A DNA stretch of 64,000 bases from Bryoerythrophyllum caledonicum. Lineage: Eukaryota > Streptophyta > Bryopsida > Pottiales > Pottiaceae. Positions within the stretch are counted from its first letter, which is position 1, and each line of letters begins with the position of its first letter. This document shows positions 75-62,859 of the stretch, piece by piece. Made by a program: the position numbers and the translations under genes. The notes under the pieces were generated by a model, which was not told the origin of the DNA, did no database searches, and worked only from the letters and a program-made list of their open reading frames with translations. Where the stretch lies: contig OZ020519.1 of the NCBI GenBank assembly GCA_963971425.1, positions 5,162,028 to 5,226,027 of the forward strand. Reading direction: 5' to 3'.

Positions 75-700
75 TAGAGTCTTCAAGATGGCGGCCACGA
101 TGTGTAAGCTGAATAGCTCCACGGGCGTCAATACTTTGAAGATGGAAGTGATTGAGGAAGAGGCGAATGACAGTCATGAGGGCAACATGGAGGGGCTGCT
201 TTTAGCAGCTATTTGTGTCAAGACCATGGCCGCCAGACGTGCAATCAAGAGGTCATCCATTACTTCTGGTGTTGTGATGGTTGACAACTCCTTGGGGGTT
301 TACTAATTTGTTAGGCCCAAGGGGAGGATTTTTGTACCTCAACGAGTGCTTTTGGATTCAAGAGCTCATCCGTTGATGCTGGGAGCATCTGCCATTGAGG
401 GATTGGGCTTGACTGGGGATACTTTGGAGAAGTGTTCATGGACAATTAGTACGTCTATGGAGGTTACGGAGCACACTACGGGCATCACAAAATCAGAGTT
501 GATGTTGCGACTCAATGAGGATGATGTCGAGGATGCGAGCTTCATGAAGGTAAATGCTATAGTCACGGAGGCCAAGTCATATAATGTCTTGGTGGGCTCA
601 GCAGTGCTATACCTCATGGGGTTCACCTTGGATTTCTAAGAAGAAACAAGTTATAAATCATAATGACAAGTTGGAGATGGGCGGAAGGCCCAGCTACCAG
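75..700 (+). pseudogene. Retroviral-type aspartic protease remnant (copy B)
   Basis: The block from 88 to 640 aligns by eye with the protease of copy A at 9,835-10,324 (shared text includes MEGLL, KTMAAR, PKG.I.VP and EGLGLTGDTLEKC). The active-site loop, LLDSGAQP in copy A, reads LLDSRAHP here, so the Gly of the Asp-Ser/Thr-Gly triad is lost. A stop near 304 splits the frame before the active site. In Ty3/gypsy elements this enzyme cleaves the Gag-Pol polyprotein. A downstream conserved tail (AVLYLMGFTLDF) is also present in copy A. Confidence 0.7.
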
Positions 701-1049: not shown

Positions 1050-2111
1050 ACTAGAAGATGGTATTCTGTTGTTGGATTTATTTGGGAGGATTGAAAGTGG
1101 CTTGGTGGCAGTGCTGCAAGCGGGGATCAAAGTCAAATTGTACATTTATGTAGATGTTGATGAGCCAGTAAGGCATGTGACCAAGCGACATTCACGGCAA
1201 TTGAAGACCTAATTTTTGGACTTGTTGGCCACTGCTGCCATTAAGACTTCCTTTTCCACGTTGGTTGGTGATATTGCGTTGCTTTCAGTAGAGGACATTC
1301 ACCAAACTGTCCATGTGGACCTTGTGATTGCGGGTTGGCCATGTCAAGGTATGTCTATGGCTGGACATCAGTACGGGTTGAAAGATACTCGTTTTTTGCG
1401 GTTTCATGATATGATCCGCATATTACGTTTGTTTTAGACACCTCAGAAGCGACCACTAGGTTACATCGTAGAGAATGAACCAGTGGTGAGTAGCTCCAGG
1501 TCAAGGACCTTGGAAGGCATGCACCGCATACACCAAATTCTAGGCTTACTAGTGTTGTTGGATGTGGCTGCGATGGAATCGTGAGCACATTGCCCGCAAT
1601 TGTGGTGGACATATATGATACCTCAAGAGTTGCTACAGTCCGCCCTCAATCGTATCAGTCGGGTGTCTATGTGAGTGATATTTTCGATCCTCTCAGGGCA
1701 CCTTGGCGCATTTACCATGACAACCAAGCACCTTTGGCCGTGGTTTATCGCAAGGGAGAACCGCGTAGGGCATTGCCCATGTTGGTTAGTTTTGCTAGGT
1801 TGTATGCCTTTAAGGATAACGGTCCTGGTTTTGTTTGGGATTCTTTGTCTCAAGAAATGGTAGAGCCCAATGCTGATGAGTGGAAGAGAGCCATGGAATT
1901 TCCGACGGACACTATCAATGTATCCGGGATTCCAGAGCAACAACAACAGTTTTTACTTGGACAAACAATGGATCTAAATTGCTTGACTTGGATCGTTTTG
2001 TTGCTAGTGGTAGAACATAAGCGGCTAGCTTCTAGTTTCAACGGTTACATGGAATCTAATGAGTTACGAGCGGCCGGAGAACCACTTATCGCTGTCAGGG
2101 TGACAAATTAA
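1050..2111 (+). pseudogene. DNMT3-like C5-cytosine methyltransferase remnant (copy B)
   Basis: Class I methyltransferase motifs occur in C5-DNMT order: motif I region LLDLFGRIESGLVAVL near 1,070-1,120, motif II YVDVDE near 1,150, catalytic motif IV GWPCQGMS at about 1,336-1,360 with the Cys intact, motif VI written ENE instead of ENV near 1,475, a motif VIII relic QLWWT, and terminal blocks EFPTDTINV and LLGQTMDLN near 1,900-1,970. Motif I has lost one of its glycines. Stops lie near 1,210, 1,435 and 1,580, with frameshifts after. These enzymes methylate cytosine in DNA using S-adenosylmethionine. This copy is certainly dead but independently shows that the domain belongs to the retroelement family. 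Confidence 0.8.
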
Positions 2112-2177: not shown

Positions 2178-3660
2178 ATGACAATACTCAAGGATGAGGA
2201 TCTTCACCATGCAGGGGAGGATGGGAGCCAAAGTAGGGAATTGGTCCACCAGAGAAGGGACTTGGAGAAAGCTGTCGTGAAGATGTTTATGGAAGAACAC
2301 ACAACTCACCAAATGGAAGAGATTGGCAGATTAAGCCAATTGGAAGGACTTGGAAGCATAGTGGGGAATGATGAAGAAGAGCTTTCTCCATCCGGCATTC
2401 AGTAGCAACCAAGGAAGGAGAATCTCGCTCTAAAAGAACCGAAGGAGGTGGTGACCAATGATACTTGGAAACTGATAGTAGGCCTAGAAAATGGAGCAGT
2501 TGTGGTAGAGGAACATGAGTTTCTTAAGGACTGCATGGATTGTTTTGCCTTTAATCTAAAAGATCTTGGAGTGTTGAAGGGGCAAGAAGTACATATCAAC
2601 TTGATAGACAAACCACCAATATATCGAAAGTTGTACAAGTATAGCCACATTGAACGGAGGATGATACAATATCATATTCATTATTTTGGGAGATTTCCAA
2701 TCTCCAAATGTAATGATAGTTTAGGTTAAGTCGACCTAAACAATATTTTCCCAAAATCATGGAATTTTTCCATTATTACAAATATGGTGTTATACGCGCT
2801 CGTACGGAGGAGTTGGTGGCGGTAGGGCTAGTGGAGTTGGCTCGACCGGATTGTGAGTATGCAGTGGCGACGGTTATGCAATCCAAGAAAGATGTCTACG
2901 GTAATTGGAGTGAGAAAAGGAGGTACGGGGAAGTCTATAGGGGGATTAATAAATTCACCAAGTTGGATTGTTAAGCCATGCCAATGTCGGAGGAGAACTT
3001 TGTGGCCATTGGTCACAAAGTATTCAATACATTAGAGTTGCGCTCTGGGTACCACCACATTGGACTTTGAGAAGAAGACAAGGAGAAGATTGCGTTTTGA
3101 CCCATTGACAAATGTGGGAAGGACCGATTGTTCCAATGGAAGTTCTTACCATTTAAATTGAAGAATGCGCTTGCCGAATTCTAGAGTATTATGGACCAAG
3201 TATTCTGGGGCTTGAACTTTGTAAGATGCTACATTGACGACATCGTTGTCTTTAGCAAGAATTGAAGGCAACATAGGCTACACTTGATGGAAGTTGGACC
3301 CCGGTAAGTGAAAATTCTATTTTGATCACATCGAGTACTTAGGCCACATGATATATCTGGGATTGGGTGTGGTAGCTAGCAAAATTGAAGTAGTCATGTC
3401 TATTCCTAGACCAAGGGATGTTAGTGGGCTATGTGCATTCTTGGGGTTGTGTAACTACTATAGAAAGTTTGTGAAGACTTTCACTGCTATTGCCAAGCCA
3501 TTGACCATGTTGACAAGGAATGATTAAGCTTGGATATGGAGAGATGACCAAGAGGCGGCCTTTCAAGAGTTGAAGTTTTGCTTGGCTTCAACACTAATAC
3601 TTCAGAGGCCGATAGCAGGAAAGACATACTAGCTACATACGGACTAGAGAGCATTGGGAA
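2178..3660 (+). pseudogene. Ty3/gypsy reverse transcriptase remnant (copy B)
   Basis: The acidic pre-RT segment (2,178-2,405) and N-terminal RT segment (2,448-2,655) match copy A at 8,390-7,800. RT fingers and palm follow in broken frames: RARTEELVA, INKFTKLD, LELRSGYHH (motif A, with Glu where the catalytic Asp is expected), RCYIDDIVVFS at about 3,225-3,255 (YIDD intact), then EYLGHMI and the connection (NYYRKFVKTF). At least five stops and several small indels are visible, and a 128 bp insertion interrupts the region at 2,666. In a live element this enzyme copies the genomic RNA into cDNA. Confidence 0.8.
2666..2793 (+). mobile_element. Putative MITE inserted in the copy B RT
   Basis: Copy A reads straight through the codons equivalent to 2,661-2,665 and 2,794-2,800, whereas copy B carries 128 bp of AT-rich sequence between them. 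ATA occurs at both junctions, which fits a TA or TWA target duplication. The left end CAATATCATATTCAT and the reverse complement of the right end (AACACCATATTTGT) are imperfectly alike. A similar right end occurs near 38,587-38,603. No coding capacity. Stowaway-like or Harbinger-like MITE is possible; family not determined. Confidence 0.4.
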
Positions 3661-4077: not shown

Positions 4078-4333
4078 TGTCGTGCACAACCGCATCGTGC
4101 CAAGATAACATCGTGCTAATCAGGTGAGAACGCCCAGTCAGAGACAACTCGAGAGTAACGGTGACATAACCACCACCGTTACCTCTGTAAAACAATAATA
4201 CAATGCACACTTACACACTTTCAGCAATCCAGACTTGGGAAAAAGAAATAAATGACCCATGACCTCGTACACCAAGAAGTAGTAAGCGGTCTCCAAGTAC
4301 CCCTTTACTCGCCCCCTTCGCCCGTGCTAAAGC
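4078..4333. repeat. LTR-like segment, truncated by the CACTA insertion
   Basis: From the TGTCGTGCACAA start this stretch resembles the segment beginning at 48,393: both contain a repeated ATCGTGC word, a hairpin with ggtga/tcacc arms, a ggaaaaagaaataaat block and cccctttact. It lies just beyond the 3' end of element A (minus) and abuts copy B (plus). I infer it is part of the 3' LTR of element A or a nearby solo LTR. The CACTA-like element begins a few bases beyond its right edge. No gene is seen. Confidence 0.4.
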
Positions 4334-4336
4334 CTC

Positions 4337-5743
4337 CACTATAAGAAACCCGTGTTTTTTGTGACAAGGCAACTAACGTGCAATTATGTTTTGTGCAGCA
4401 TCCGGCACGTCAACGTTGACATCCAAAAAAATCCGTTATAATTGACATGCGAAAAACATGCCAAAATCTCAAAAAACAGGCCCACGTTTTTTAAAACGTC
4501 ACAAAAACTTGGGGGTTGAAGGTATTAAAAATCTGCCATGTGGCTGCCATGTCGCGTCCACGTCATCGCCACATGGACCGGCAGTGCCACATCCCCAAAT
4601 TTTTCATCCGGGCCCTTGGTAATGTGGCCCATAATGTGGCGCATGACGTGGCATACGATTGTGACTAGGCTTGCATGCGTGGACCCGCCATTTAATGACG
4701 TGGCACCTTTAAAATATGACGTGTCACTTTTAAAAATATGACGTGGCATGTCTAATCAGCATAGTTTAATGCAATAATTAATTGTGGACAGTGTAAATTG
4801 GGACGTCATTTCTAACACGGTATGTTTTCTGTGACGTTCGTTATGACGTTTTCTGTGACGTTCGTTAGACATTTTCTGTGACGTTCGTTATGACGTTTTC
4901 TATGACGTTCGTTGAGATGGAGGTCACCAAAATCAAGCACCAGGTCAGCAAAAGCAAGTGCCATGTCACCAAAAAGAAGCGCCATGTCATCAAAAAGTAC
5001 TGTATCACTTTAAGTTTCAAGGGTAATTCAAATTCATCCAAATAGATGGATGAAAGTGAATCACTCTTGATTCAAGTGTGATGAGATAGGAGAGAAGGCC
5101 TTACATATATATACAATGAGATGCACAAGTGGTGACAATCCATATGGGATTTTTGGATTTGTTATGGTGTTAGCATAAACATTCAAATGTCATAGTAGAC
5201 GTCCATCTAGACGTCTGTTCCAACATCCATTTTGCCTACGTGGCAGTTGATTTCAACCTTGCCTACGTGGCACAAACATTTTAAAAAGAATCCAATTTCT
5301 ACCTTGCCTACGTGGCTCAAACATGTTTTTTGTGATGTCAGTAAGGACATCCACGTTTTTTGTGACGTCAGTAATGACATCCACATTTTTATTTTTGTAG
5401 GGGTCAGCCCATCTCCATTGTGTTTTAACCGTTGGGCAGTGTTTTACGGGAGGTTGCAGTAACAATCTCGAAGTTACTCACAGTGAAGCTAAACCCCCCT
5501 GCCGACGTGGCATTGTCACCTTTCTGAGGACGTTGTCTAAAACATGACTATGTTCACTAGGACGTCCCGCAAAACAAATACGTTTATGCTAACATCTCTG
5601 TGTTTTTCCGCCAATTTTTCCATGTTTGGTGCAACATCCACCCGAATCCGAGAGCCCAAGGCTCGGCCCGTTCGCAAAAACATGTTTTGAAAAACACACT
5701 TGATCACAGCTAACGTCACAAAAATCACGGGTTTCTTATAGTG
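4337..5743. mobile_element. Non-autonomous CACTA-like (En/Spm) DNA transposon
   Basis: The 1,407 bp segment starts CACTATAAGAAACCCGTG at 4,337 and ends with the inverted match CACGGGTTTCTTATAGTG at 5,743, the classic CACTA-superfamily terminus. Flanking triplets are CTC and CCC, an imperfect 3 bp target duplication. Subterminal regions contain many short repeats in both orientations (gacgtggca, ctacgtggca, gacgtcag, tgtgacg), as expected of transposase-binding arrays. No transposase-like reading frame is present, so it would have depended on a full-length relative. It sits inside LTR-derived DNA, so it inserted after the retroelement. Confidence 0.75.
4825..4914 (+). repeat. Four tandem 23-24 bp repeats inside the CACTA-like element
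   Basis: Units begin at 4,825, 4,849, 4,872 and 4,896 with the consensus ttttctgtgacgttcgtta followed by a tgacg-type spacer. They lie 0.5 kb from the left terminus. Such arrays are common in CACTA elements; here the core word GTGACGTT also occurs near both ends of the element. Confidence 0.8.
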
Positions 5744-5954
5744 CCCTTTCACACCGGCGAACCACACAGTTTACATGTAAACTGAATGATCACCGTGAAT
5801 GAAAACCTCTCAAAACCATAGAATCAATGTCATCTACATGAAAAGACGCTAAAAGACTTAACACACAAAGGGTAGGCCGGGTGCAAGTAGAGCCCCATCG
5901 TTAATCGCCTCTAACATATTTTTAATGCTAGACTTTGTCCACTCAGACCCTCAA

Positions 5955-6230
5955 CGTGCTAAACACTCAGGATAAGACCATTGATCCACTGGTACTTCCA
6001 ACAGAGGTGGAGTTAAGCATTCTAAATGCCACCCCGTAGAACATAAGTCACAAATAACCATAGTGGCTGCCCTTTTGCACTACCACACAACCGACAACGT
6101 AATCCAGTAGAGATGTGAGAGAGACCAGGGTGTATTGTCCCATCAATGTGTGGCAAGTGGCAAGGTGCACAATTACGTGTGTGATCCTTCCACTTCTTGC
6201 CATCACGACCCTCCAACACTAACACTCATG
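5955..6230 (-). pseudogene. PHD finger at the integrase C-terminal side (copy A)
   Basis: After the integrase tail the frame reads GLRCRLCGSAKG at about 6,102-6,067, then shifts by one base and continues MVICDLCSTGWHLECLTPP and DQWSYPEC to about 5,963. Spacing is that of a C4HC3 PHD finger (C-x2-C, C-x2-C, W-H-x2-C, W-x-C-x2-C) except that the seventh ligand Cys is Tyr (WSYPEC). PHD fingers bind histone H3 tails or other chromatin proteins; in a retroelement this could tether the integration complex, replacing the chromodomain of chromoviruses. The same finger is intact in copy C at 61,057-61,380. Here the frameshift and lost ligand make it non-functional. Confidence 0.7.
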
Positions 6231-6933
6231 AGTCCTTCACCTCACGAACTCTTAAGATTACCCTTCCTGCTGTCACATCTAAGGTGGTGGACATTGCTTG
6301 CTGCAAATACACATAGTCTCCCAGTGTGAAACGCCGCACCTGCAGTCGATAACCACCGTCTCGTATTGTAGCATAGCGCAACGTAACCCGATGTTGAGCA
6401 ATGGAGAGGTTCTCCAATGCCATAGGCATCACCCTTTCGAACAACTCTGGACGTTGCTAACACACTTGAGCCCACGTATCTGGATTGTCCATGTTAGCCA
6501 ACACGGTGTCAGCATCTGCTTGAATGGCCTTCGATAAAACCGGGTGCCTTCCAAACAATAGATTGTAATGTGAAAAAGACGCCAAGGATGCTTGTTTGCT
6601 GAACCGATAGCCCATTGCTATCCATGGTAGCTGTAAATCCCAATCCTGGTGATGTCCTTTCTTGAAGCTGTACTTCCGGAGCCCCCTCTTGACGGTTTGT
6701 ACCATGCGCTCCGCCAATCCATCTGCTTCGGGGTGATCCCTCGAAGTAGTGCGATGATCAATCATCGCTTGCTCATACAATGTCTGAAACTCACCCAAGA
6801 ATTCTCTGCCTTGGTTTGTAAGTACCTCTGCTGGAGCTCCAAAGCAACTCAGAACACGGTCAAGAAACGAATAAATAGCTCCCTCACTGAACTTATCATC
6901 ATTCATTTGCGTCAATACTGCATCAATCCCCAA
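6226..6933 (-). pseudogene. Integrase, N-terminally deleted (copy A)
   Basis: The frame from 6,933 begins with RNase H text (GIDAVLTQMNDD) and at about 6,894 jumps into the integrase core (KFSEGAIYSFLDRVLSCFG), then LTNQGREFLGEF, the catalytic-Glu region ADGLAERMVQTV, and YNLLFGRHPVL. The zinc-binding H2C2 domain and first catalytic Asp are lost in the deletion, and the second catalytic Asp of the usual LTDQG is Asn. A second frame from 6,475 carries the C-terminal beta-barrel region (LRYATIRDGGYRLQVRRFTLGDYVYL). Integrase inserts cDNA into the host genome. The fragment at 15,900-16,380 and copy C show the segments missing here. Confidence 0.75.
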
Positions 6934-6935
6934 CG

Positions 6936-8078
6936 AGCTTCAATCTGTGTGTAGCTGGTACGTCCTTCCTGCTATAGGCCTCCGAAATATTGGTGCTGAT
7001 GCTAAACGGTCTTTCAATTGTTGAAAGGCCGCCTCTTGCTCATCTCCCCAGATCCAAGGTTGATCATTCCTTCTCAACATGGTTAATGGCTTGGCAATAG
7101 CACTGAAAGTTTTGACAAACTTTCTATAATAGTTACACAATCTCAGAAATGCTCTCAACCTACTAACATCTCGTGGTCTAGGAATAGACATCACTACTTC
7201 CACTTTGCTAGCTACCACACCTAATCCACTTGGATAAATCATGTGGCCCAAATACTCAATGCGATCAAAGTAGAATTTGCACTTACCAGGGTGTAACTTT
7301 AATCCATGGAGCCTCAAATTAGCAAAAACCTCCATCAAGTGTAGTCTATGTTGTTTTCGATTCCTGCTAAAGACAACGATGTCATCAATATAGCATTTCA
7401 CGAAATCCAACCCCGAGAATACTCTGTCCATGATCCTTTGAAATTCTGCTGGAGCATTCTTCAATCCAAACAGTAGAAACTTCCATTGAAACAACCGATC
7501 CTTCCCATCCCTGTCAATGCCCCAAAACGCGGTTTTCTCCTTGTCTTCGTCTCTCAATCCAATCTGATGGTATCCCGAGCATAAATTCAACGTACTAAAC
7601 ACCTTGGCATGGCGAATGGCCTCAAAGTTCTCCTCAAGAGTTGGCATTGCATAACGGTCTGACTTAGTGAATTTATTAATTCTCCTATAGTCACCACACA
7701 TCCTTTTCTCAGTCCAATTACCATAAATGTCTTCTTGGATGGCATAACCGTTGCTGATGCATACTCACAATCTGGAGGAGCCAACTCCACCAACCTTGCA
7801 GCCATCAATTCTTCAGTGCGAGCACGAATCATCTTCCGCTCCATGTCGCTATACTTGTATGGCTTTCGATAAATTGGTGCTTCGTCGGTTAAGTTAATAC
7901 GCACTTCTTGCCCCTTCAATACTCCCAAATCATGTAAACTGAAAGCAAAACAATCTAAATACTCCTTCAGGAACTCATGTTCCTCCACATCCACTACTCC
8001 ATCCGCCAGGCCTATTTTTGGTTTCCAAGTGTCCTTAGTCACCACCTCCTTCGGTTCCTTTGAAGCAGGGTTTTCCAC
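6936..8078 (-). pseudogene. Ty3/gypsy reverse transcriptase (copy A)
   Basis: Two overlapping frames (8,078-7,587 and 7,701-6,940) cover the whole RT: N-terminal FAFSLHDLGVLKGQ, YRKPYKYSDMERKMIRARTEEL, DYRRINKFT, LPFG-equivalent LLFGLKNAPAEFQ, the catalytic CYIDDIVVFS (about 7,395-7,366), the thumb EYLGHMI and the connection NYYRKFVKTFS. A frameshift follows MPSKK. Motif A reads STLNLCSGYHQ with Asn (codon 7,585-7,587) where the catalytic Asp belongs, a single G-to-A change. RNase H starts (TYQLHTD) but meets a stop at 6,940. The enzyme would have copied element RNA into cDNA; it is inactive as it stands. Confidence 0.85.
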
Positions 8079-8087
8079 CCTTGGTTG

Positions 8088-8390
8088 CTATTGAATCCCC
8101 TGTGGAGGAGACTCTCCTCCTTCCTCCTCAATAACACTCTCAAGTCCTTCCAATTGACCCAATTTGTCAATTTCTTCCATGTGAAGAGCTGTGTGTTCTT
8201 CCAAGAAGATCTTCTCCACAACATCCTCCAAATCCATCCTCTGGTGAGCCAATCTGTTCCCTTCACTCCAGTTCTCCCCTCCATAGTGAAGATTTGTTGT
8301 TGTGGTAGTCGCAAAATTATTTGCGGTATCCCACATGTTCCATAGATGAGGTGCAAAGGCCCTCTCGCCCCCAACCACCTTGCTTGTCAC
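8088..8390 (-). pseudogene. Acidic pre-RT linker (copy A)
   Basis: A 100-codon open stretch rich in Glu separates the methyltransferase from RT; the corresponding acidic stretch is at 2,178-2,405 in copy B (EEHT, H.EEI..L.QLEGL). No domain is recognised. It probably was a polyprotein spacer, perhaps carrying a protease cleavage site that releases the methyltransferase from RT. Confidence 0.5.
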
Positions 8391-8420
8391 CCTGATAGAG
8401 GCAAGTGGTTCTCCTGCCGC

Positions 8421-9499
8421 CTACAACTCATAATAACCCATGTAACTAGTTAAACTAGAAGCTAACCGCTTCTGTTCTGCAACCACTAATGAAACAATCC
8501 AAATCAGGCAATTTAAATCCATGGCCTGACCAAGTAAAAATCGTCTCTGTGGTTCTGAAATCCCAGGCACATCGGTGGTGCCAGTGGGAAATCCCATGGC
8601 TCTCTCTCGCTCATTTGCATTTGGCTCCACCATCTCCTGAGACAATGAATCCCATACAAGCCCAGGTCCATTATCCTTGAAGGCATACGATCGTGCAAAG
8701 CTAACCAACGTGGGTAAGCCCAACGTGGGTAAGCCCTACGTGGTTCTCCCTTGCGGTTAACCACCGCTAATGGTACCTGGTCATCGTGATACACGCGCCG
8801 TGGTGTCCTGTGAGAATCCAAAATGTCACTCACATATACAACTGGGCGCTTAATGCGACCCACCGTGGACTGTAGCAACTCTGCTGGTGCCAGGTTTGTC
8901 CACCACAAGTGTGGTCTATGTGCCTTCGATCCTACTGCAGCCGCATCAATTAACACTGGCAAACCCAGAGTCTGATGGATTCTGTGCATACTTTCGAGTG
9001 TTCTGGACCTTGAACTGCTCACCACGGGCACATTCTCTATAATATAACCAGGCGATTGCCTTTGAGAAGTCTGAAGCAACCGAAGCACTCGAATCATGTC
9101 AAAGAACCTTGAAGAACGGGAATCCTTTAACCCATTCTGATTGCCTGCTATAGACATGCCTTGGCAAGGCCATCCTGCAATGACAAGGTCCATATGACCC
9201 ACTCAGTGAATGTCATCGTCTGACAGCAAAGAATTATCACCCACAACTGTAGCGAAGGAGGTTTTGATGGCACTAGTGGCCAATAATTCTGGGAATTGAG
9301 TCCTCAGCCTCCGTGTGTGACGTTTGGCCACATGCCTTGCTGTTTCATCCACATCCACGTAAATGTAGCGCTTAACCTTGATCCCAGCTTGTAAAACAGC
9401 TGCCAAGCCTGTGCCAATTCCTCCAAAGAGCTCCAATAATACGATACCATCCATTGGTGCCGTCCAATGGATGGTAGCAGTGTCTAACGGAGGCCCCAT
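8421..9499 (-). pseudogene. DNMT3-like C5-cytosine DNA methyltransferase (copy A)
   Basis: The domain has C5-DNMT motifs in canonical order: I LLELFGGIGTGLAAVL (around 9,440-9,390), II YVDVDE, IV GWPCQGMS with catalytic Cys at 9,166-9,164, VI IIENVPVV (9,037-9,029), VIII AHRPHLWWTN (near 8,920), and C-terminal ERAMGFPTGTTDV (8,606-8,570) and FLLGQAMDLN (8,540-8,511). The AHRxxxWWxNL block, the GFPxxxTDV block and the LLGxxx block match the DNMT3/DRM style rather than DNMT1/CMT; order is not permuted, so it is not DRM. About 360 residues, a catalytic domain only. One stop separates motifs II and IV (9,203) and a 1 bp loss plus a 15 bp tandem duplication shift the frame near 8,720. It lies between protease and RT, within pol. 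Confidence 0.85.
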
Positions 9500-9520
9500 G
9501 TCTTGGTCAACTCCGGTCTC

Positions 9521-9748
9521 CTATTGCATCTGTGGTAGCATAGATTGTTGCCATGCTTCTTCCACTGCTAACTCCGCGGCCATCCTCAATTGGGTGGTGT
9601 TACTCCATGCCGCCTCAATCCCAGGTCTGTATCCTTCTTCCTCTCCACCACCCGTGTTGCCTATGTAGGCATCCACCTTCTCTGAAATGTGGTCAACCAT
9701 AGAAGGATCCTCAAAACCTGCCTGAAACCATGAAGGTTTCATATTCAT
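9521..9748 (-). pseudogene. Protease-methyltransferase linker (copy A)
   Basis: A 75-codon open stretch matches the copy B segment at 739-1,044 (WFQ.G.ED.SM, GGG.., IEA.....TTQL, WQ.SML). It ends in a stop about 20 bases before the methyltransferase frame begins. No known domain is visible. Shared spacing in two copies indicates an original single polyprotein. Confidence 0.5.
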
Positions 9749-9834
9749 ACCTCCAGAGAAGGCAAATACGTCAGCTAAGTTATCAGTAAGAACTCAAACA
9801 AATCGAGCTGGCAGCTGAGCCTTCCGCCCATCTC

Positions 9835-10324
9835 CTACTTGCCATCCTGGTCTATAGCTTGTTGACTCCTCCCAGAAATCCAAGGTAAATCCCATAGGGT
9901 ATAGCACCGCCGAGCCCACTTAGACATCATACGACTTGGCCTCCGTAACGATCGCCTTCACCTTCATAGAACTGGCATCTGCCACATCACTTTGGTTGAG
10001 TTGTAACATCAACTCAGCCCTTGTGATCCCTGTCGCGTGCTCTGTGCCCCCCATAGATGTGCTAATGGTCCAGGGACACTTCTCCAAAGTATCCCCCGTT
10101 AATCCCAACCCTTCCATAGCAGACGCTCCCAGCATCAAAGGTTGAGCTCCCGAATCGAGAAGCACACGTCGAGGTACAAATATCTTCCCCTTAGGCCCAA
10201 CGAGTTGAAAAATACCCTGGGAATTATCAACCACTACCACACCAGGGGTAATAGATGATCTCTCAATCGTAGGTCTAGCGGCCATTGTCTTCACACGCAT
10301 GGCTGCTGAAAGCAGCCCCTCCAC
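9835..10324 (-). pseudogene. Retroviral-type aspartic protease (copy A)
   Basis: The frame from 10,324 carries the catalytic loop VLLDSGAQPLMLG (around 10,180-10,140), the Asp-Ser-Gly form of the retropepsin active site, followed by EGLGLTGDTLEKC and a conserved hydrophobic tail VGSAVLYPMGFTLDF after a stop near 9,918. The protein would cut the Gag-Pol polyprotein. It follows gag and precedes the linker and methyltransferase. Copy B has the same domain with a mutated active site. The catalytic residues are intact here, but the stop before the tail suggests loss of function. Confidence 0.75.
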
Positions 10325-10684
10325 GTTGTCACTCTAGCTCTCCTCTGCTTGGATTATCTCTATCTTCAACACATTAACCCTTGTGGAGTTATCCAACTCA
10401 CACATTGAGGCCACACTTTTGAAAACCTCTGCCACACTGAAGCCATCCTGTGATATCTTAGAAGAAAATAACGAGGCTTCCCATACGGAAGTAGTTGCTC
10501 CCATAAGTGCTCTAGAACCTCTTGAGAGTCCTCCAGCTCGTGATCAGGCTCCTGTGGATGTCGCCACTGGTCGTGGTGGAGGCACCATGGACGACGTGGG
10601 TACCATCTCTTCTAACGTGAAGGATTGAGGCAACCTGGTTTGTCGATTATCCTTTCCATGGTGGGGATCCAGAGTTGGACTAGC

Positions 10685-10906
10685 TCAACGTGGAACATCC
10701 TTGGAACTTGGAGTATGGCTCCGTGTGAGGGCATAGACCTCCTGTGTGCCATCCCTGATGGCAAGTGTCATACCACTCAACATAAAATCTCCAAATTCAT
10801 CATCCATAGAGCTAAAACCGCCCCCAGTATGAAAACTGGGAGTAACCTGAGGCTTGCTACCTACCACATTGGTATTGGCACTCATAGCTTCCATCTTGGC
10901 CTCCAA
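10685..10906 (-). pseudogene. Gag-protease spacer segment (copy A)
   Basis: A 73-codon stretch downstream of the zinc knuckles begins with MEAKMEAM, a short charged heptad-like run, and continues with a Phe/Asp-rich segment. No domain is recognised. From position 10,685 to 10,330 the minus strand holds only broken frames before the protease, including a G/S/T-rich stretch. It is part of the element by position alone. Confidence 0.35.
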
Positions 10907-11020
10907 CTCGGCGAATTTGGCCTTCTAGCTCTTCTTCTCCCCTCTAGTGGTCTTGGACTCCTTGTCCTTGCCTCTTTTAGCTCCCTTGCTCCCCGTGGGC
11001 TTCAACTCTTGATGGAGCTT

Positions 11021-11365
11021 TCAGCAGCTGGCCTCTGCATGCCCCTTGGCACCACAACTTGAGCAAAAACCTCTAGTCTGAGGTGTGGAAGTCTTACCTT
11101 CCTTGCAATCTTTCCTCTGATGTCCTGGCTTCCCACATTTGAAACACAAGGCACTAGACTCTGCAGTATACGAAGGAATGGCCACCTTGGCCACCTTAAC
11201 CTTCTCTGGGACCTTCTCTTCACGTTTGAAAAAGCCCATGGCTGCCTTCTCTTCCAGTAAGTTTATCTCAATCCGCTCCGAAGTCTCAAAAACAAACCGT
11301 AGTGTCGTGGGTACTCCCAATCGTAACGCCTCATTGCGAACCAAGGTCTTCAACTCCTTGTCCAT
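11021..11365 (-). pseudogene. Gag nucleocapsid part with two CCHC zinc knuckles (copy A)
   Basis: Two zinc knuckles of the CX2CX4HX4C type are visible: CFKCGKPGHQRKDC (near 11,150-11,105) and CSSCGAKGHAEASC (near 11,065-11,021). A basic Lys/Val-rich segment precedes them. In retroelements these bind genomic RNA and assist packaging. Stops just upstream (near 11,393 and 11,375) separate this part from the capsid-like region, so the gag frame is broken. Two knuckles rather than one is common but not universal in plant gypsy elements. Confidence 0.8.
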
Positions 11366-11392
11366 GATACTATATCAATGTTGGACTGCCTG

Positions 11393-12106
11393 TTATTCTG
11401 TAACTCCGTGAGTGGCTGAGATTCGTCTCCTTAATCTCGCATGAGCCTCTCTTAGAGACTTGTCACCTCCACGTGTGAAAGAACAAAGGGCCTTCATCTT
11501 ATCCGCCCTCTGTCCTTGGTAATCTCTATGGAGTTGTACGAAAAATCCCATTGTAGGATTGAATGGAGGTGGATGATTTACCAGTACCTCTGGCTGCTCC
11601 ACATCCTCCGTTGAGCTCGTGCCTTCTTCCATCTTCCCCTTGGATAAGAGTGGAGGTATCACCCTAGGTGCTCCACCGAATACGTCCACGTAGTTCGGTG
11701 CATAGAAGTCTCTCCAGGCCAAGATTTCGGTGAAATGAGCCGCCTCGAACTCTCCGTAGTCCGCCAGTGGCACTCCCTCCAGACACTCAAACAAGGCTCT
11801 CCATACCATATACGGATTGAAGTTGGGGTTATGTGACTTCTGGAGTTCACACCACATGGTGAACTCCCTCTTGAAGTCATCGACTTCGATGGTGCCCGTG
11901 GCACCTGAAAATTTTCGTACCCCTCTTTCTCCACCTCTATATGGTGAAGTCATTTCCTCCCAATCAAAATATGATTGATGAGGCTTTATGGGTAAGACTG
12001 GAACCTGAACACTCACCTGTGCGCTTTCAAGAAATTCCCTCTCTTCTACCAGTGGCAAAACACTCTCCTCTGCCTCTTCTGGTTGACCACGATTTTCTGT
12101 CAGCAC
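11393..12106 (-). pseudogene. Gag capsid-like region (copy A)
   Basis: A 237-codon open frame contains retrotransposon-gag text: VRKFSGATGTIEVDDFKREF, then MVWRALFECLEGVPLADY, and a C-terminal FTRGGDKSLREAHARLRRRI segment with the usual sequence 'short, basic, Arg-rich' before the zinc knuckles. The family forms the virus-like particle in which reverse transcription occurs. It is the longest uninterrupted gag part. The first Met is arbitrary: the upstream frame continues with stops to 12,335, so the true start was probably further upstream. Confidence 0.7.
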
Positions 12107-12334
12107 TCTCTCACTAGCATCTACTGAGAAGGGGGTGTTTCTGCGTGTAAACCCGGGACCCTTCCAGTTCTCCAGATTGCTAATTGGGTGCTCCTACTCG
12201 AACAATCGCCAGGCCTCATGGGTTCCTCTCATCTCTGGGGCATAGATCGTAGATGTCACTTCCCAATCCAATAACTCTAAGGTAAGAATATCCCACACAC
12301 TCGAGGCACGCTCCTGCCACGTGTTAACCTCCCA

Positions 12335-12856
12335 CTACCAGGTAGTGTGGAATAAAAATCCTTCGCTCTCGAACTCGGTGAAAATGAGGGAGAAAGTGGA
12401 TAACTGGATGCCTGAAGAGAAGTCCTCAACCTCTAAACCATATCTGGATCCAGAATTTCGAAGAACCACGGCCTTACCTCCAGTTACCAAGTCTTCGACC
12501 CCCACTTGCCCACGAGCACGGCACAGCGGTGCTGGAATTCCCTCCTTTGTCCGAAGTGAACGAATCTTCTGGACCCCACCTAGTGAAGTCCAATACTTCA
12601 CTAATTCCGCACTCAACACCTTCGTGCCTGGTTTGTGCAAACTCTGAGGCCCCGTGCGAGATTTGGCTATGGGTGAAAGCTCAAAGTCCCCGTGGCTACC
12701 ACTTACTATGGCTGGGGAACCTTTCACTCGTAGGCTCTGCAAACAATCGATCAAGGTGTCCAACACCTCACCATCAATTTCCACCTTCAGCCCACTAGTC
12801 CTCTCGGGTTTCTTAGACTTACCTCTTCCGTCCATGGTCCATAACTTGAGTGCCAA
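12335..12856 (-). pseudogene. Upstream ORF / gag N-terminus (copy A)
   Basis: A 173-codon open frame starts MALKLWTMDGRGKSKK and lies between the repeat-rich leader and gag. It has no recognised domain. Its position suggests the original gag N-terminus or a separate small leader ORF; the 230 bp between it and the capsid region is broken by several stops. A GTAAGT word close to its start could act as a splice donor, which cannot be tested here. Confidence 0.4.
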
Positions 12857-13069
12857 CTAACCTTGAAACCCTCAAACCATGGTAATAGTGTTCATGCAAG
12901 CTTCCACGAATCCATTTTTCCCTCCACCAGGTGCTATGAGTATAAAATCATCTTTCAACCTCCTGGTAGTCAATGTTGGTACTCGGGTAATCTCATACGC
13001 AAACCCTACCTAAACCTCATATGGGTATGGCAACCGCTAATATGGTCCCCGTCTCGATTACCAACCCCC

Positions 13070-13812
13070 ACAGTCGGTCATCAACCCGACTGCTGGTTAT
13101 CAACACGACTGCAGGTCATCAACCCCACAACCGGTCAATTACCAAGGGGCCGGGTTTAAACCAAGCACCGGATATCAGTCGCATATACGAGTGTCACTAA
13201 TCCAGGTGGGTATCATCACAACACCGGGTTTCTACACCAGTATCAGGGTATCAAGTGTAAATGCGGATAAGGGTATCAATCACAACCGAGTATTAGCTCA
13301 AATCGGATATCGTACCACACCCGGGTATCAGCTCTTCCTTCCGGGTATCGCTCACTTGTCCGGGTATAAACCCACAGACCCGGGTATAAACACTGCCCCG
13401 GGTATAAACACCTGCCCGGTTATCGAACCCCAACACCGGATATCACTATAACCAACCGGATACCAGTAGCACAAACCGGGTATCGATTGGATCGGGTATT
13501 AGGCGGACAGGGTATTCCGACAAATGTTGGATATCAGACCCTCGCCCGGATATCAATCACACTGCAGGGCATCAACTCGAACCCGATTATCAGTCCAAAA
13601 CTAGGGTATCAATTGAACGGGCGGGTGTCAATCAGTAGGAGGGTACCAATAAGAAAGCGGGTATAAGTCGGAGCAACCGGGTATAAATAACATTTCAGGG
13701 TATCATGGACCAGCGGATATCAAAGACCAGGCGGATATCAACTACTACGAGGGTATCAGTCCAGGCGGGTGTACTGAAGCAGCCGAGTATACACTAGTAG
13801 TCCGGGTCCGAG
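13070..13812 (-). repeat. Degenerate ~19 bp tandem array, core CCGGGTATCA
   Basis: About 40 variants of the plus-strand core C(C/G)GG(G/A)TATCA recur every 17-21 bp over 740 bp, for example at 13,169, 13,206, 13,321, 13,341, 13,477, 13,546, 13,697, 13,731 and 13,750, with unrelated filler between cores. Adjacent units differ strongly, so this is an old or functionally constrained array rather than a fresh satellite. It lies directly 5' of the first ORF of element A, i.e. in its leader or promoter side. Neither strand has a frame keeping a repeated peptide. No equivalent is seen elsewhere in the window. Confidence 0.8.
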
Positions 13813-14829
13813 TACTGCGCAGACTGTGTCTGCGCCGTGTCTGTGGACGCCGAAGTGGCCCTGTCTACATGTCTGTACCCACACATCACTCGGTCCTCAC
13901 GTCGCTCACGTCCCGTGTGCATACTCTCGAGTCTCCATCCAAACCCCCTCCCGAACAGGCACCAAGCCCCCCCCGCATTATAACTAGCCCTCTCCTAATC
14001 TACACTCTCCATCCCGAAAACCAGCCAACTCACTCCAACATTAACCACCCCACGCTTCACGTATGCTACGCGAAGCCCGTGTCTACCAACGTACGACAGT
14101 TAGTGCGTCCTTACACCCTCACATTCAAGTATTGCTCACAAACACGGCTACTGTGAATGAGAAGACTTGGCACTATCCATGAGTGAAGCTGCTGCCAGTG
14201 CAATGCTCTCCCGGACTTCACACCCCGAGTTACTCCAAAGCCGTTCAAAACCTGTACAAACAATACAGCGCCCCAGCCCGGCGTAACCCCAAAAGCGTTC
14301 CGTCCATCGCGTAGGCGACCCACCTTCACAGTGCTCCGCCTTCACACTGTGGTCCATGATCAGATCCGACCCACCGCCCGGGCCCCAGTCCAATGCGCGC
14401 TCCGTGCACCAGCAGTACTAATGCGGAGTCTCGCCCTTCCACGCGAACACCACCACTGTAGTAGCAACGACTCGTTCGTGGAGTCTTCGGTACAAGCCGA
14501 GATTTACGATCACTACTCCCGCTCTCGACCTTGCGCGTTCGCGCTTCCTAGTCCACGTCCAGAGCCCCAATCGCAGTGAAGCGCACACCTGCGCTCCTGC
14601 TTGTACCAACTGTTGAATCCCGCCTCAAACCACCGCCAAGCTCATGTCGCAAACTCCCAGCATGCACAGCCGCCGCGGCTCCCAACGTCGAACCATGCAG
14701 GCCTCCTACGAAAGTGGATCTACTCTTTCATCCTCGGATGAGAGGTCAAGTCAACGGATCTTCATCCGTGGTGTAGTCGAAAGTCACTCTCCACCACCCC
14801 TCCTCTAACCTTATCTACAACATTCATCC
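13813..14829. other. GC-rich stretch with no supported gene
   Basis: This kilobase is richer in G+C than its surroundings and pyrimidine-rich on the plus strand. Short open frames on both strands have no recognisable domain and no splice-like structure. By position it may contain the 5' end (promoter or LTR) of element A, but no TG...CA boundary or primer-binding site was found. Otherwise I see nothing in it. Confidence 0.4.
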
Positions 14830-15351
14830 CTCCTCTTCTAAGTATGCTTGAGGGTTTTGCAACAAAAATTTCAGCACTAAAACCTTGCTCAAAAACACCC
14901 TAAACACAACATTTTGAGGGTTTTAAGTGTCACTAAATCACTAGGAATACACTCATATCTTAGTGATGATCTTTCTCAAGTAATAAACAAGTAGAAAATA
15001 CTCATAAACTACACATAGTCAAGCCAATGCCATTCTTAAAGAATGGTTGCATAATAACAATGAAGTTCAAGAAGTGCACGCACGTACGCACTCTCTCACT
15101 CCATCACGTGGGAGACTCAACTTGAGAAAGATGAGTCTCCCCACACTACACGTGGAGGTCATTTGGACTCCAAGTCCCAAATGAGGTGTCAAAAGACACC
15201 ACCAAGGCCCTAAAAGTCAAATAACACTAATACTAACTCTAATTAACAACTAAAGCTAGCATCTAGGGTTTCCTTGGGCCATTTAACCTCCTAGTTGGTT
15301 TACAACGCATAAACCAACCTCCACAAACCCTCCAACGCGTCGAACCTGACA
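14830..15351. repeat. LTR-like segment related to 48,393-48,983
   Basis: The right half (15,109-15,210) matches 48,741-48,840: a stem-loop ggagactcaa/tgagtctcc, then cgtggaggtcattt, then caaatgaggtgtcaaaagac. The right end ends CCTGACA at 15,351, as at 48,983. The left half is less clearly related. Repeated self-complementary words are consistent with an LTR transcript region, and the TGTC/GACA termini of the relative at 48,393 fit an LTR. Orientation is uncertain. Confidence 0.45.
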
Positions 15352-15362: not shown

Positions 15363-16380
15363 GTGTTGGCAGTGCGTAAAAATGACACCGGTGAAACTAC
15401 TATGGCCACAACAGATGAAGATGGCGGTGACAAATTTAGGAGCACCAAAGACATTTGTGAAGACTTCAACGTGATGCATTTTTTGAAGAATGGAGAAGTG
15501 ATGTCTATGCGGTCCGCTAAGGACAGAGATCGAGTCTCACAACGAGCAAAACGATTTGTGTCGGAGAGAACTCACCTTTTGAGAGTGTGGCCCTATGTAC
15601 CCGGAAGGTTGTGCCGCCTCCAATAGAGAGAGTTAAGCTTATTAAGGACACGTATGAAGACCTTGGGCACTTTGAGGTGCGGAGAACTTACAACTTGCTC
15701 TAACTTCACTATTGGTGGCGAGGAATGTAGCCACAAGTTCAAGCTTTGGTGGCCTGGTGCATGGTGTGTGATCGTGTGGGAGCATCTTTTAACTCTCCAA
15801 TGCCACAATTGCAACCATTACGAATTATGGGCTTAAGATACATGTGGAGCTTGGACTTTGCGAGTCCACTGCCAGTGACACTTTGACACAACAAGTATGT
15901 GTTAATGATGATTGAAGATTTTTCAAAGTAGATTGAGCTGGTAATCTTGCCTGAAAAGTTGAGTGATGTCGTCGCTTACTCTTTCCTTCATCGTATTCTA
16001 AGTCGTTTTGGAGCTTTAGAAAAAGTTCTCACAGACTAAGGACGTGAGTTCTTGGGTGAATTTCAAATATTGTGTGAGCAAGCAATGATAGAACACATCA
16101 CTATTTTGAGGGATCATTCCAAAGCGGATGAATAGGCGGAGTGCATGGTGCGAATTGTCAAGAAAAGGCTTTGGAAGTATAGTTTGAAGAAGGGACATCA
16201 CGAGGATTGGAACTTGCAACTACCATGAATAGCCATAGGCTACCGGTTTAATAAGCAAGCATCTTTGGCGTCCTTTTCTCCTTACGCCTTGTTGTTTGGA
16301 AGGCATCTGGTGTTACGAAATGCCATTCAGACATATGCTGACACCGTGTTGGCTAACATGGACAATCTAGACACATGGTT
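15363..16380 (+). pseudogene. Integrase fragment of the same Ty3/gypsy family (copy D)
   Basis: From about 15,620 broken frames give the zinc-binding region (YEDLGHFEVRRTY, then MVCDRV), the core (MWSLDFASPLPV, with the first catalytic Asp), then YSFLHRILSRFGAL, a stop in LTD.GREFLGEF, and YALLFGRHLVL to 16,380. It covers exactly the part deleted in copy A. The open frame at 15,363-15,626 upstream corresponds to the RNase H-integrase spacer. Integrase inserts element cDNA. The fragment stops abruptly at 16,380, where Harbinger-derived DNA may begin, so that insertion probably cut it. Confidence 0.75.
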
Positions 16381-16549
16381 TAGTATCCTTGTGTCCCTAA
16401 CACATATATGTGCCGTGTTTGTTCTTTACCACCAATTTTGAGCATATTGGCTCATTTTTTTGATGTTTTGGTTGTAGGAATTGACACATGGGTGAGACTC
16501 TATGCTAGGATGGTTGTAATGCTACCAAAATTCAACAAAATGGCCACGG

Positions 16550-48392: not shown

Positions 48393-48983
48393 TGTCGTGC
48401 ACAAATACATCGTGCAAAGATAACATCGTGCTAATAGGTGAGAGCGCACAATTAGAGACAAATTCGGAACAATGGTGATTAAATTATCACCGTTGTCTCC
48501 GTATACGACAAAAACAGTAGTTCACAAAAGAAACTATCCACCACTCAGCAACCTAGGCTAGGAAAAAAGAAATAAATACCCAAACCACAACATTTAGTAA
48601 TTGGTCTACAAGGACCCCTTTACTAACAAACAAGTACAAAACACTTGTAACTTACATAATAGTCAAGTCCATGCTACTCTTGAAGAGTTGAAGCATGATC
48701 ACGATAAGGTTGTGGTGTGCAACACCCTCACCTCATCACATAGAAGACTCAACTTGAGAAAGATGAGTCTCCCTCAACCACACACGTGGAGGTCATTTGG
48801 GCTCCAAGTTCCAAATGAGGTGTCAAAAGACACCACTATTGACCTAGCCGTCACACGGCACTAATCCTAACCCTAATCACCAATTACGGCTAAGTTGTAC
48901 GCCTTCCGGTAAGTCCACAACTTCCTAGGTGGTTTCTAACCGGAAACCACCTACACAAACACATCCATGTGTCAATCCTGACA
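48393..48983. repeat. LTR-like segment (possible solo LTR)
   Basis: The 591 bp segment starts TGTCGTGC and ends CCTGACA, giving the short TGTC...GACA inverted termini typical of LTRs. It contains three stem-loops (ggtgattaaattatcacc at 48,475; gactcaacttgagaaagatgagtc near 48,746; ggtgtcaaaagacacc near 48,816). Related segments are at 4,078, 14,830 and more distantly 60,172. A 5 bp target duplication is not convincing. It lies at the end of the dispersed repeat ending near 48,380. Confidence 0.5.
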
Positions 48984-61056: not shown

Positions 61057-61380
61057 TTAAGCCGTTTCATTGGGTGAAACGTGGCTCAAAGACCTCCCAC
61101 AACGAGGGCAACTCCAATCTCCGGATCGTAGAGTAGGAAGAGGCGCTGTCAAACAAGCCATATGCCAACCACACTGGCAATGGCCACAAAACAACATGGT
61201 AGCGGCGCCCTTCTTCTCTCCACACACGAAACATAGACAGCTATCTAGCACAACAACCAACTTCAAATGGATGGAGCCATCAACAGGTAAATGATAGAGA
61301 ACACAATTCATAGTGCTCCGACACTCCCGGCTATCCTTGCCTTCCGACAACACGATACCACTAGGAAACACGTCCTTCAC
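61057..61380 (-). CDS. PHD finger domain of the Ty3/gypsy integrase C-terminus (copy C)
   Basis: An open frame holds a complete C4HC3 PHD finger: CFVCGEKKGAATMLFCGHC, then QCGWHMACLTAP and GDWSCPRCG. All eight ligands (C-x2-C, C-x2-C, H-x2-C, C-x2-C) and the Trp before the last pair are present. Upstream text (ILRVKDVFPSG, EGKDSRECRSTMNC) matches the region between integrase and PHD in copy A. PHD fingers typically read histone H3 N-terminal methylation state; here the likely role is chromatin targeting of integration. The frame is separated from the integrase by a stop near 61,390, so the copy is not an active polyprotein though the finger itself is intact. Function is inferred. Confidence 0.75.
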   Translation of the reverse strand: MKDVFPSGIVLSEGKDSRECRSTMNCVLYHLPVDGSIHLKLVVVLDSCLCFVCGEKKGAATMLFCGHCQCGWHMACLTAPLPTLRSGDWSCPRCGRSLSHVSPNETA

Positions 61381-61399
61381 GCGAAGAATAGTATGCTCC

Positions 61400-62391
61400 T
61401 CCTACACGACCAACGTCGTGGGCGCTTCATATTGTAGATAAACACAATCTCCCGTGGAGAAACGTTGCAACTGAGGTTAGTAAGCACCTCTACAAATACG
61501 AGCGTACCGTAAAGTGTCACGGTGCTGAACAAAGGAGAAATTCTCTATGGCCATGGGCATGGCCCGCTTGAAGAACTCCACTTGATCCCGTAGACATTGG
61601 GTCTACACTTCAAGATTGTCCAAATCCACAATTGGAGCCAACTTTCCTTGAGTGGAACTCGGTAAAATTAACTCCCGCCCGTACAACAACTGATACGGAC
61701 TGAAAGCAATCAATGAAGCCTACTGGCTAAATGGTAATCCATCCCGATCCATGGTATCATCAGATCCCAAGTATGGTGGCCATCGTGAAATAATCCATAC
61801 TTCCGTAGGCCCCGCTTTACGGTCTAAACCACGCGCTCCGCAAAACTGTTCGCTTCCAGGTGATTCCGAGAAGTGGTAAGGTGATCAATCAAAGCCTTGG
61901 TAAACAAGTTTCAAAAGCCCCAAGGAACTCACGCCCCTAGTTAGTCAAAACCTCAGCTGAGGCTCCAAAATGAGTCAACACTCAGTGGAGGAATGCCATG
62001 CCACCAACTCTAAAGACTTCTACAAAAGAGCCACAAGCTCAATCCACTTGCTGAAATGCCCCACCATCACCAAGACATACTTGGCTCCGCGTGGAGTCAC
62101 GACAAGTGGACCAACAAATTCCAAAGACCACCGATATCCTAGCCTCATAATGGGCAAAGGCTGCAACTAGGGTAATAAGGTGTTGAAGCTGGATTTAACC
62201 CGATCACATACTTGACACCGAGAAACATACGTGGCAACCTGTTGATACATGCCGGTCCACCAGTACTGGCCGCGCAACATCGAATGAATCCGTCGCACAC
62301 CAAAATGTCTTAGGTCTTCATATACTTGCCATATCAATAAAGCCCTCTGATCTGGCCTCGGAACTATGCGTCTAGTCTCATCTGGCCGCAC
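61400..62391 (-). pseudogene. Integrase remnant (copy C)
   Basis: The frame at 62,391-62,167 gives the zinc-binding N-terminal domain (LRHFGVRRIHSMLRGQYWW, then SRCQVCDRVKSS). Broken frames continue with RWSLEFVGPLVVTPRG (the first catalytic Asp is Glu), YVLVMVGHFSKWIELVALL, a stop in LTN.GREFLGA (second catalytic Asp lost), SPYQLLYGRELILP and a C-terminal block FFKRAMPMAIENFSFVQHRD. The order and spacing match copy A and copy D. Integrase joins element cDNA to host DNA; this copy is dead. Confidence 0.75.
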
Positions 62392-62591
62392 TTGGAATAG
62401 AAGCCCGTTCTCCTTACTATTTGGTGCCCAACACTATTCTGCTCCATAGCAGAAAGAGCTCGGGGAAGAGTCCCATGTTGGAGCTTGTGCCAGACTGGAC
62501 CGTCTTCCCACACATTGTTAACAACTTGGGCCTTATCTGGTTCGTCATCTGTTGCCAAATCAGGCAATGTTGATGCGGAGCCAGACATCAA
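62364..62591 (-). pseudogene. RNase H-integrase spacer (copy C)
   Basis: A 75-codon open stretch (SGSASTLPDLATDDEPDKA near the start) lies between RNase H and the integrase zinc domain. No domain is recognised. It overlaps the start of the integrase frame by a few codons, consistent with a frameshift in one original reading frame. Confidence 0.4.
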
Positions 62592-62648
62592 CGTGACGTA
62601 AGCAGCTGCATGCCACCCGGGGACTGACTCCCTGTCACAGTCCCCATG

Positions 62649-62843: not shown

Positions 62844-62859
62844 GAGCCACCGCTTCGGC

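Follow-up and report, generated by a model that had tools for sequence, protein, structure and literature searches.

A DNMT3-like methyltransferase ahead of a leaky-type stop in a high-copy, split-repeat retroelement of the moss Bryoerythrophyllum caledonicum

DNA methylation is among the chief means by which plants hold transposons in check, and a mobile element that keeps a selected methyltransferase of its own is therefore a puzzle. This puzzle has been open since 2018, when the described gypsy case was a single alga. It is raised again by a 64,000-bp stretch of the genome of the moss Bryoerythrophyllum caledonicum (contig OZ020519.1, positions 5,162,028 to 5,226,027; hereafter, the window), in which a DNMT3-like cytosine methyltransferase (DNMT) was predicted inside a Ty3/gypsy-like retrotransposon. 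Why would a retroelement carry such an enzyme? In this work, we found that the predicted domain lies in element A (4078..15351, minus strand), a broken copy of a high-copy family of retroelements with split repeats. With moderate confidence, we propose that this family keeps the DNMT3 as a working part, which would be produced at the level of Gag and would mark the DNA of the element itself.

The DNMT of element A extends over 8424..9439 on the minus strand, close to the predicted extent of 8421 to 9499. All motifs listed in the original prediction were recovered in the translations, namely, LLELFGGIGTG (motif I), LVIAGWPCQGMS (motif IV), YIIENV (motif VI), AHRPHLWWTN (motif VIII), and the terminal block GFPTGTTDV...RRFLLGQAMDLN (motif X), named as is customary for C5 methyltransferases. 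Because these motifs are in the order I-IV-VI-VIII-X, the domain is not a rearranged DRM. The Pfam profile PF00145 matched at 5.2e-13 (49.6 bits; cut-off, 22), and the nearest solved structures to the main piece of the domain are DNMT3A chains (1.2e-11). The separate C-terminal piece found no match in Pfam and matched DNMT3A chains alone, with an E-value of about 0.9 that is weak by itself. A profile of 20 relatives scored 76 bits for DNMT3A, 70 for DNMT3B, 45 for 4onj (which we take to be a DRM), 37 for DRM2, 31 for HaeIII, 28 for HhaI, and 21 for DNMT2. By these scores, the domain is closest to DNMT3 among the solved C5 methyltransferases. Both catalytic residues, Cys in motif IV and Glu in motif VI, are kept in all 23 rows printed out of 59 aligned; their neighbors vary (PCQ or ECQ; ENV, ENA, or ENT).

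Element A combines gypsy-like enzymes with terminal repeats that are split into parts A and B. Read along the minus strand, it begins with the 5' repeat part A1 (14981..15351), followed by a gag open frame (11396..12193) that matches the gag of the related contig L001 (described below) weakly (25%, 3e-10) and has CCHC knuckles, recognized by eye, downstream. This gag frame had no match in Pfam. An aspartic protease (PR) with the motif DSGA follows at 9923..10333; it has a counterpart in the neighboring element B, and its match to PF13650 (4.5e-4, 21.3 bits) is below the cut-off of 24.3. After the DNMT come a reverse transcriptase (RT) with the start of RNase H (6943..7764; PF00078, 1.9e-28), an integrase remainder (6460..6939) that is 66.9% identical to the L001 integrase and weak in Pfam, a degenerate and frame-shifted PHD finger (approximately 5950..6099; Cys/His pattern by eye), and the 3' repeat part B (4078..4309). 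The translations indicate an internal deletion that has removed the bulk of RNase H and the beginning of the integrase. The ends are TGTC and GACA, and a 4-bp duplication, CCTT on the plus strand, flanks the whole element at 4074-4077 and 15352-15355. The repeat parts A and B are 97.8% and 97.9% identical to those of a nearly identical copy elsewhere. Self-comparison of the window found no ordinary pair of long terminal repeats (LTRs) around element A because the repeats are split. The pieces at 4067-4309 and 15.0-15.4 kb were also considered as a separate 600-bp repeat; this was rejected, as these pieces form the two ends of element A, B and A, respectively.

The original prediction had noted the same arrangement in a separate copy at the start of the window, and protease-DNMT-RT was indeed found there on the plus strand. 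This copy, element B, contains a protease (184..588) and an RT (2885..3644), both assigned by comparison with element A, as well as a broken DNMT (1069..2066; PF00145, 4.5e-10). An integrase piece at 15953..16387 (plus strand) is read as the rest of element B, given the comparison and the duplication around element A, and element A is accordingly read as having inserted into element B and interrupted it. The two elements are 72.6% identical over 2610 aligned columns. Both are broken; among 330 aligned DNMT codons, there are one stop in A and three in B, with frame changes in both.

The 437-Mb assembly of this moss was then used for a survey of the family. PF00145 yielded 1055 candidates; 123 of these were scored and exceeded the cut-off without exception. 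This count includes L002 (a separate bacterial-type gene) and may include other loci that are not elements. With the RT of element A, 141 of 4643 candidates were scored, every one with at least 88% identity, while many of the unscored candidates may belong to other families. We examined 50 of the 141 scored RT loci, namely, the best 30 (including L032, which is element A itself) and the 20 lowest-scoring, and the DNMT was present at 49 of these. The loci picked by DNMT matches (L003-L031) represent 25 distinct copies and partly overlap with these 50. Intact copies with the DNMT between protease and RT do exist: an open ORF1-type frame (at least 1358 aa) and a stop-free 1041-aa ORF2 frame occur together at no fewer than eight places (coordinates paired by eye). 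The family is high-copy and has intact members elsewhere, though the window copies are broken. As for L002 (G000:C14:16016358-16017317), its 370-aa open frame encodes a full-length bacterial-type cytosine methyltransferase (PF00145, 2.4e-62), and its presence in the moss assembly may reflect a transfer, a contaminant, or a mis-join.

These counts bear on a simple explanation, named in the original prediction as one that would refute it, in which a host DNMT gene fell by chance into one retroelement copy. The window copies taken alone, being broken, would be compatible with such an accident, but the domain occupies the same site in 49 of the 50 RT loci, in polyproteins from Marchantia and metagenomes, and in L001. 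It also shares one open frame with the protease in the open copies, and duplications bracket the whole element in three copies. We rejected this explanation, which has only a vanishingly small probability. The domain is a regular part of the family, as originally predicted, and the selection described below agrees with this.

Intact copies have the layout A1-[gag-CCHC-PR-DNMT3]-UAG-[RT-RNaseH-integrase-PHD]-B1-GC-A2-B2. The stretches read (20, plus two copies read for repeats) were mostly chosen for long open frames rather than at random. The two copies read for repeats consist of A1 (370 bp), the coding part, B1 (233 bp), the dinucleotide GC, A2 (370 bp), and B2 (233 bp), with A1 and A2 identical at 370/370 positions and B1 and B2 at 233/233; both were chosen for having both frames open, such that their youth is not a family average. 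Their ends are TGTC...GACA and their 4-bp target duplications are CCTC and TAGT, and with element A, this combination of TG..CA ends and 4-bp duplication is found in three copies. Two full direct LTRs were found in neither copy; both have A at the 5' end and B-A-B at the 3' end. Nor do the elements have the tyrosine recombinase of the DIRS type, as they encode an integrase with rve and H2C2 domains instead. The gypsy-type order PR-RT-RNase H-integrase, with a DDE integrase and an H2C2 finger, was found in L001 and in the protein P0148. Four exact tRNA primer-site words were absent from L001 and from L082, a copy with a leader matching that of element A; other tRNAs were not tried.

The contig L001 (CADCWO010000201.1; 9285 bases), deposited as part of an uncultured Synechococcales (cyanobacterial) metagenome-assembled genome, consists of a whole plant-type retroelement. 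Its DNMT is 93% like that of the moss lineage represented by L028 and L029, and given its likeness to the moss copies, it is probably plant DNA inside a bacterial genome bin. The two contig ends have 127 identical bases in common. ORF1, which is open from the contig start and ends at 3491, encodes a gag with two CCHC knuckles (by eye), a protease below the Pfam cut-off, and the DNMT. ORF2 (3492-6635) continues in the same frame and encodes RT, RNase H, H2C2, integrase, and PHD. In the moss, the alignment of ORF2 frames to this ORF2 extends into the PHD finger, reaching residue 1016 (L014) and residue 1035 (L024). L001 also has the repeat junction ACGACA-GC-TGTCA, as in the moss copies.

How, then, is the DNMT expressed relative to the RT? 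In both window elements, the DNMT frame closes with GIQ-TAG, after which CAA CCA runs in the same frame into the RT. The junction reads CAA TAG CAA CCA (GIQ-stop-QPR) in element A (8079..8099, minus strand) and CAG TAG CAA CCA in element B (2394..2414, plus strand). The predicted position between protease and RT thus stands, but the domain is not the middle part of a single Pol; it forms the C-terminal portion of the Gag-protease frame, with a leaky-type stop before the RT. In tobamoviruses, UAG-CAR-YYA serves as the type I readthrough signal (PMC3542737; also PMC2194720), and in the moss elements, the frame is open before and after UAG-CARYYA. The junction could be aligned in 48 of the 50 RT loci (TAG in 46, CAG in one, and GAG in one), and the six bases that follow (CAACCA in 44, CAATCA in three, and CAACTA in one) conform to CARYYA in all 48. 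Among the 25 copies picked by DNMT, 23 align at the junction, all with TAG and 22 with CARYYA. The GIQ end is also present in six proteins of our first protein search (P0013, P0070, P0100, P0103, P0104, and P0117). A second deep moss lineage (L028 and L029) and L001 have ATK-TAG CAA TCA, and the residues around the stop are nearly unshared between the lineages (GIQ-stop-QPRVEN versus ATK-stop-QSPAVP). Given this UAG-CARYYA stop, the motif predicts DNMT3 at Gag level, with RT made by readthrough alone.

Alternatively, the UAG may be the ordinary end of ORF1, with ORF2 translated in some other way and CARYYA inherited without function. The bases after the UAG also encode ORF2, and some of them could thus be maintained by coding constraint. 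However, such an ORF2 needs no frame shared with ORF1, yet both frame and motif persist amid unrelated flanking residues, and the changes within the six bases are only Y for Y in the 48 junctions, with one exception in the set picked by DNMT (L017). Furthermore, UAG with CARYYA is expected at about 1 in 1500 stops (our own estimate by base counting), and across both strands of the window, the bare motif has six occurrences, two of which are the A and B junctions. We regard an ordinary stop as very unlikely.

For selection on the enzyme, nine loci of the genome were hand-picked for open frames and thus do not sample the family at random. When two moss subfamilies were compared, with three loci from each, the DNMTs had 85-86% amino acid identity, with nonsynonymous divergence (dN) of 0.08-0.09 and synonymous divergence (dS) of 1.28-1.45; the resulting dN/dS of 0.06-0.07 indicates purifying selection. 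The values are 0.12 and 0.15 for L028 and L029 against L001, and 0.11 (0.06-0.17) for the DNMTs of elements A and B, for which the comparison covered the DNMT and the protease (0.12). As synonymous sites are near or beyond saturation in the deeper pairs, these give a rough ratio or none. The DNMT is under strong purifying selection.

Relatives of the element were sought in two protein searches, the first with 250 matches (120 of them listed) and the second, for long proteins, with 57. The named hosts among the matches listed are Calypogeia fissa in the first search and Marchantia polymorpha, Sphagnum fallax, and two strains of Closterium in the second, and none of these matches was named Klebsormidium. 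No relatives were found in the viral contigs scanned. Retroelement-type DNMT polyproteins in Marchantia are annotated as hypothetical proteins (P0121, P0123, P0130, P0133, and others). Matches to both DNMT and RT were found in 26 proteins, of which 13 have the DNMT before the RT (class I, the architecture of the window elements, although some of the RT matches are short) and 13 have it after. In the latter (class II: P0154, P0156, P0158, P0161, P0164-P0166, and P0168-P0173), the DNMT is located after RNase H and, where an integrase follows, ahead of it. By Pfam, 11 of these 13 have a PHD finger after the integrase; the exceptions are P0170 and P0172, the latter of which stops before the integrase. 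In class I, it was found in P0148 and L001, was below the cut-off in P0176, and was not found by Pfam in P0147, P0162, and P0163. A G-patch is also present in P0156 and P0169, and a Tudor-like domain in P0154.

Trees were inferred with FastTree from 59 DNMT rows and 21 RT rows (element A twice in the RT set), leaving out DNMT matches below 270 profile positions, RT matches below 260, and 113 of the 120 proteins from the first search. The only outside row was one human DNMT3A fragment, and the RT tree consists of DNMT-bearing elements alone. Class II formed one group in both the DNMT tree (15/15, support 0.97, with P0159 and P0167, which lack RT, assigned by their DNMT) and the RT tree (12/12, 0.997), both without P0176. 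The latter has class I order, yet in each tree it has a long branch and falls next to class II, with support of 0.88 and 0.93 when it is included. As both trees split the same two architectures (P0176 apart), their agreement argues that DNMT and RT travelled together. The two DNMT positions may reflect one capture that later moved, or two captures.

Taken as a working enzyme, the DNMT3 could act as follows. Most ribosomes would stop at the UAG and yield bulk Gag-protease-DNMT3, while a minority would read through into the RT-integrase-PHD part, such that each particle would contain many copies of DNMT3 and few of RT. The DNMT3 would most likely put 5-methylcytosine on new element DNA (cDNA or circle), in the particle or in the nucleus. 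Methylation before or at integration would let new copies resemble host chromatin on entry, and the PHD finger may help to choose the integration site.

The same product might instead act in trans on host methylation (e.g., in gene bodies or by competing with silencing marks) and not mainly on the element's own DNA. The bulk product predicted from the leaky-type stop could leave the particles, and the SymbioDIRS-Dnmt3 domains of dinoflagellates methylated yeast chromosomes de novo (PMC5890265). On the other hand, fusion to Gag and protease predicts confinement to particles, and Klebsormidium, which has such elements, is reported in the same article to have a land-plant-like methylome (PMC5890265). 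We consider action in trans unlikely. A further alternative is that the domain has lost DNA methylation and persists because, as part of Gag, it binds nucleic acid or methylates RNA. Part of the stretch from motif VIII to X is poorly predicted in an AlphaFold model, and a relative from Klebsormidium gave a negative result in the yeast assay (PMC5890265); the catalytic Cys and Glu kept in the 23 rows noted above and a dN/dS of about 0.07 speak against such a role, which we judge to be quite unlikely. Catalytic residues and selection appear to favor an active enzyme, as in our proposal of self-marking at Gag level.

Several observations weigh against this proposal. The Klebsormidium domain (KnitGypsy-Dnmt3) gave no methylation in yeast, a result that its authors regarded as inconclusive (PMC5890265). 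Tyr replaces the catalytic Cys in at least one metagenome protein (P0007), and the AlphaFold model is moderate, with a mean predicted local distance difference test score of 71.7 and values below 50 at residues 235-270. The dN/dS of close pairs is unstable, ranging from 0.07 to 0.63, with 0.34 for L028 against L029. The junction has exceptions: CAG (L051 and the diverged element C of the window), GAG (L070), CAACCT (L017), and TAA directly before TAG (L059). Moreover, the copies are mostly alike, so the 48 junctions represent few independent events and are better counted as two deep lineages or three subfamilies. Members without the domain, which according to the original prediction would speak against it, are represented by one locus of the 50; L057 joins the protease straight to the RT, with neither DNMT nor junction, and loss is thus possible.

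A wider hypothesis, which we offer only tentatively and hold to be doubtful as a whole, is that these elements form an ancient streptophyte retroelement lineage that combines gypsy enzymes with split repeats like those of DIRS. In this lineage, the leaky stop would make DNMT3 a particle component at Gag level, the particle would methylate the DNA of the element, which would go through a B-GC-A circle-type junction, so that copies would be born methylated, and the PHD finger of the integrase would read host histones. If true, one mobile element would unite a methylation writer and a reader, resembling the DNMT3-ADD pairing of animals. With more than 100 scored copies in a moss, recent insertions, and what is likely a signal for stoichiometry, the puzzle becomes accessible to tests in land plants. 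The family is also relevant to the way in which elements with split repeats and a DDE integrase are copied.

Other features of the window include further traces of this family. Element C (61060..63913, minus strand) is a fragment of a diverged relative, with a DNMT tail (63913-63833; E-value of 0.001 for the tail alone), RNase H (62894-62652), H2C2 (62433-62170), integrase, and PHD (61401-61060; Pfam). Its junction, within 63538-63561, reads CAG CAA TCA, with a sense codon at the stop position. A related element (72%) is represented by a solo A-B unit (48393..48983, minus strand), the product expected from recombination between A1 and A2. In element A, the A2-B2 unit of intact copies is absent, which a deletion between B1 and B2 would explain. 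Its 3' part contains an insert (4337..5743, approximate, strand unassigned) with 29-bp, 97% inverted ends CACTATAAGAAACCCGTG, which is missing from the L083 copy; with internal TGTGACGTT repeats and near-perfect inverted ends, the insert is like a non-autonomous DNA transposon. The leader of element A (12856-14980, minus strand; approximately 2 kb) has many short GGGTATAAACC-type repeats.

Elsewhere in the window, a hand-spliced eIF2alpha gene at about 55.9-58.3 kb is 97% identical to that of the moss Ceratodon purpureus and 85-87% to those of Sphagnum and liverworts. The top row by E-value is a Capsicum protein, yet with 76% identity; by exon, a handful of residues differ from Ceratodon. This gene points to a moss close to Ceratodon as the host, and a conifer or fern, also considered, was rejected on this basis. 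Harbinger-like DDE_Tnp_4 pieces were found at 17197-17883 (minus strand), and Helitron-like and PIF1-like pieces at 49769-53294 (plus strand). An Rfam scan gave nothing at the gathering threshold.

In the literature that we searched, DNMT3 in gypsy elements was met only for Klebsormidium and in one sentence on streptophyte LTR elements, which names Copia and DIRS (PMC12344493); supplements, most subscription papers, and preprints were outside this search. Unlike the present account, the section containing that sentence describes no moss family, junction, or PHD finger (PMC12344493). The kind of element and its repeat layout have been known from Klebsormidium since 2018, while the leaky stop, the PHD finger, the abundance in a moss, and the second architecture were not met in the literature searched.

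The precedents given in the original prediction hold for the charophyte gypsy element; the dinoflagellate enzymes are carried by DIRS and LINE elements (PMC5890265). KnitGypsy-Dnmt3 of Klebsormidium nitens has gypsy domains, a non-rearranged Dnmt3 with Ka/Ks < 0.2, and DIRS-like repeats in the order A-coding-B-A-B (de Mendoza et al., 2018; PMC5890265, legends of Figures 1e and 4c). Compared by description, the moss family is like it in gypsy domains, Dnmt3, and A-coding-B-A-B repeats. It differs in the position of the enzyme, as the Dnmt3 of KnitGypsy-Dnmt3 is in the Pol ORF (PMC5890265), whereas the moss DNMT3 ends the Gag-protease frame before UAG-CARYYA. A word search of the main text of that article gave no mention of PHD, protease, or readthrough (PMC5890265). 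SymbioDIRS-Dnmt3 also has a Dnmt3 in a split-repeat element, but uses a tyrosine recombinase (PMC5890265), unlike the DDE integrase of the moss elements.

For the stop itself, the closest likeness is the readthrough of the tobamovirus replicase, which has the same stop codon and six following bases (PMC3542737). Unlike the viral stop, that of the moss elements separates Gag-PR-DNMT3 from RT in a retroelement. Soybean SIRE1 belongs to the copia class, and we know of no DNMT in it. Like the moss family, this plant retroelement has frames separated by an in-frame stop, which is reported to be suppressed (PMC2194720). The SIRE1 stop is at the pol/env junction, whereas that of the moss elements is located between DNMT3 and RT.
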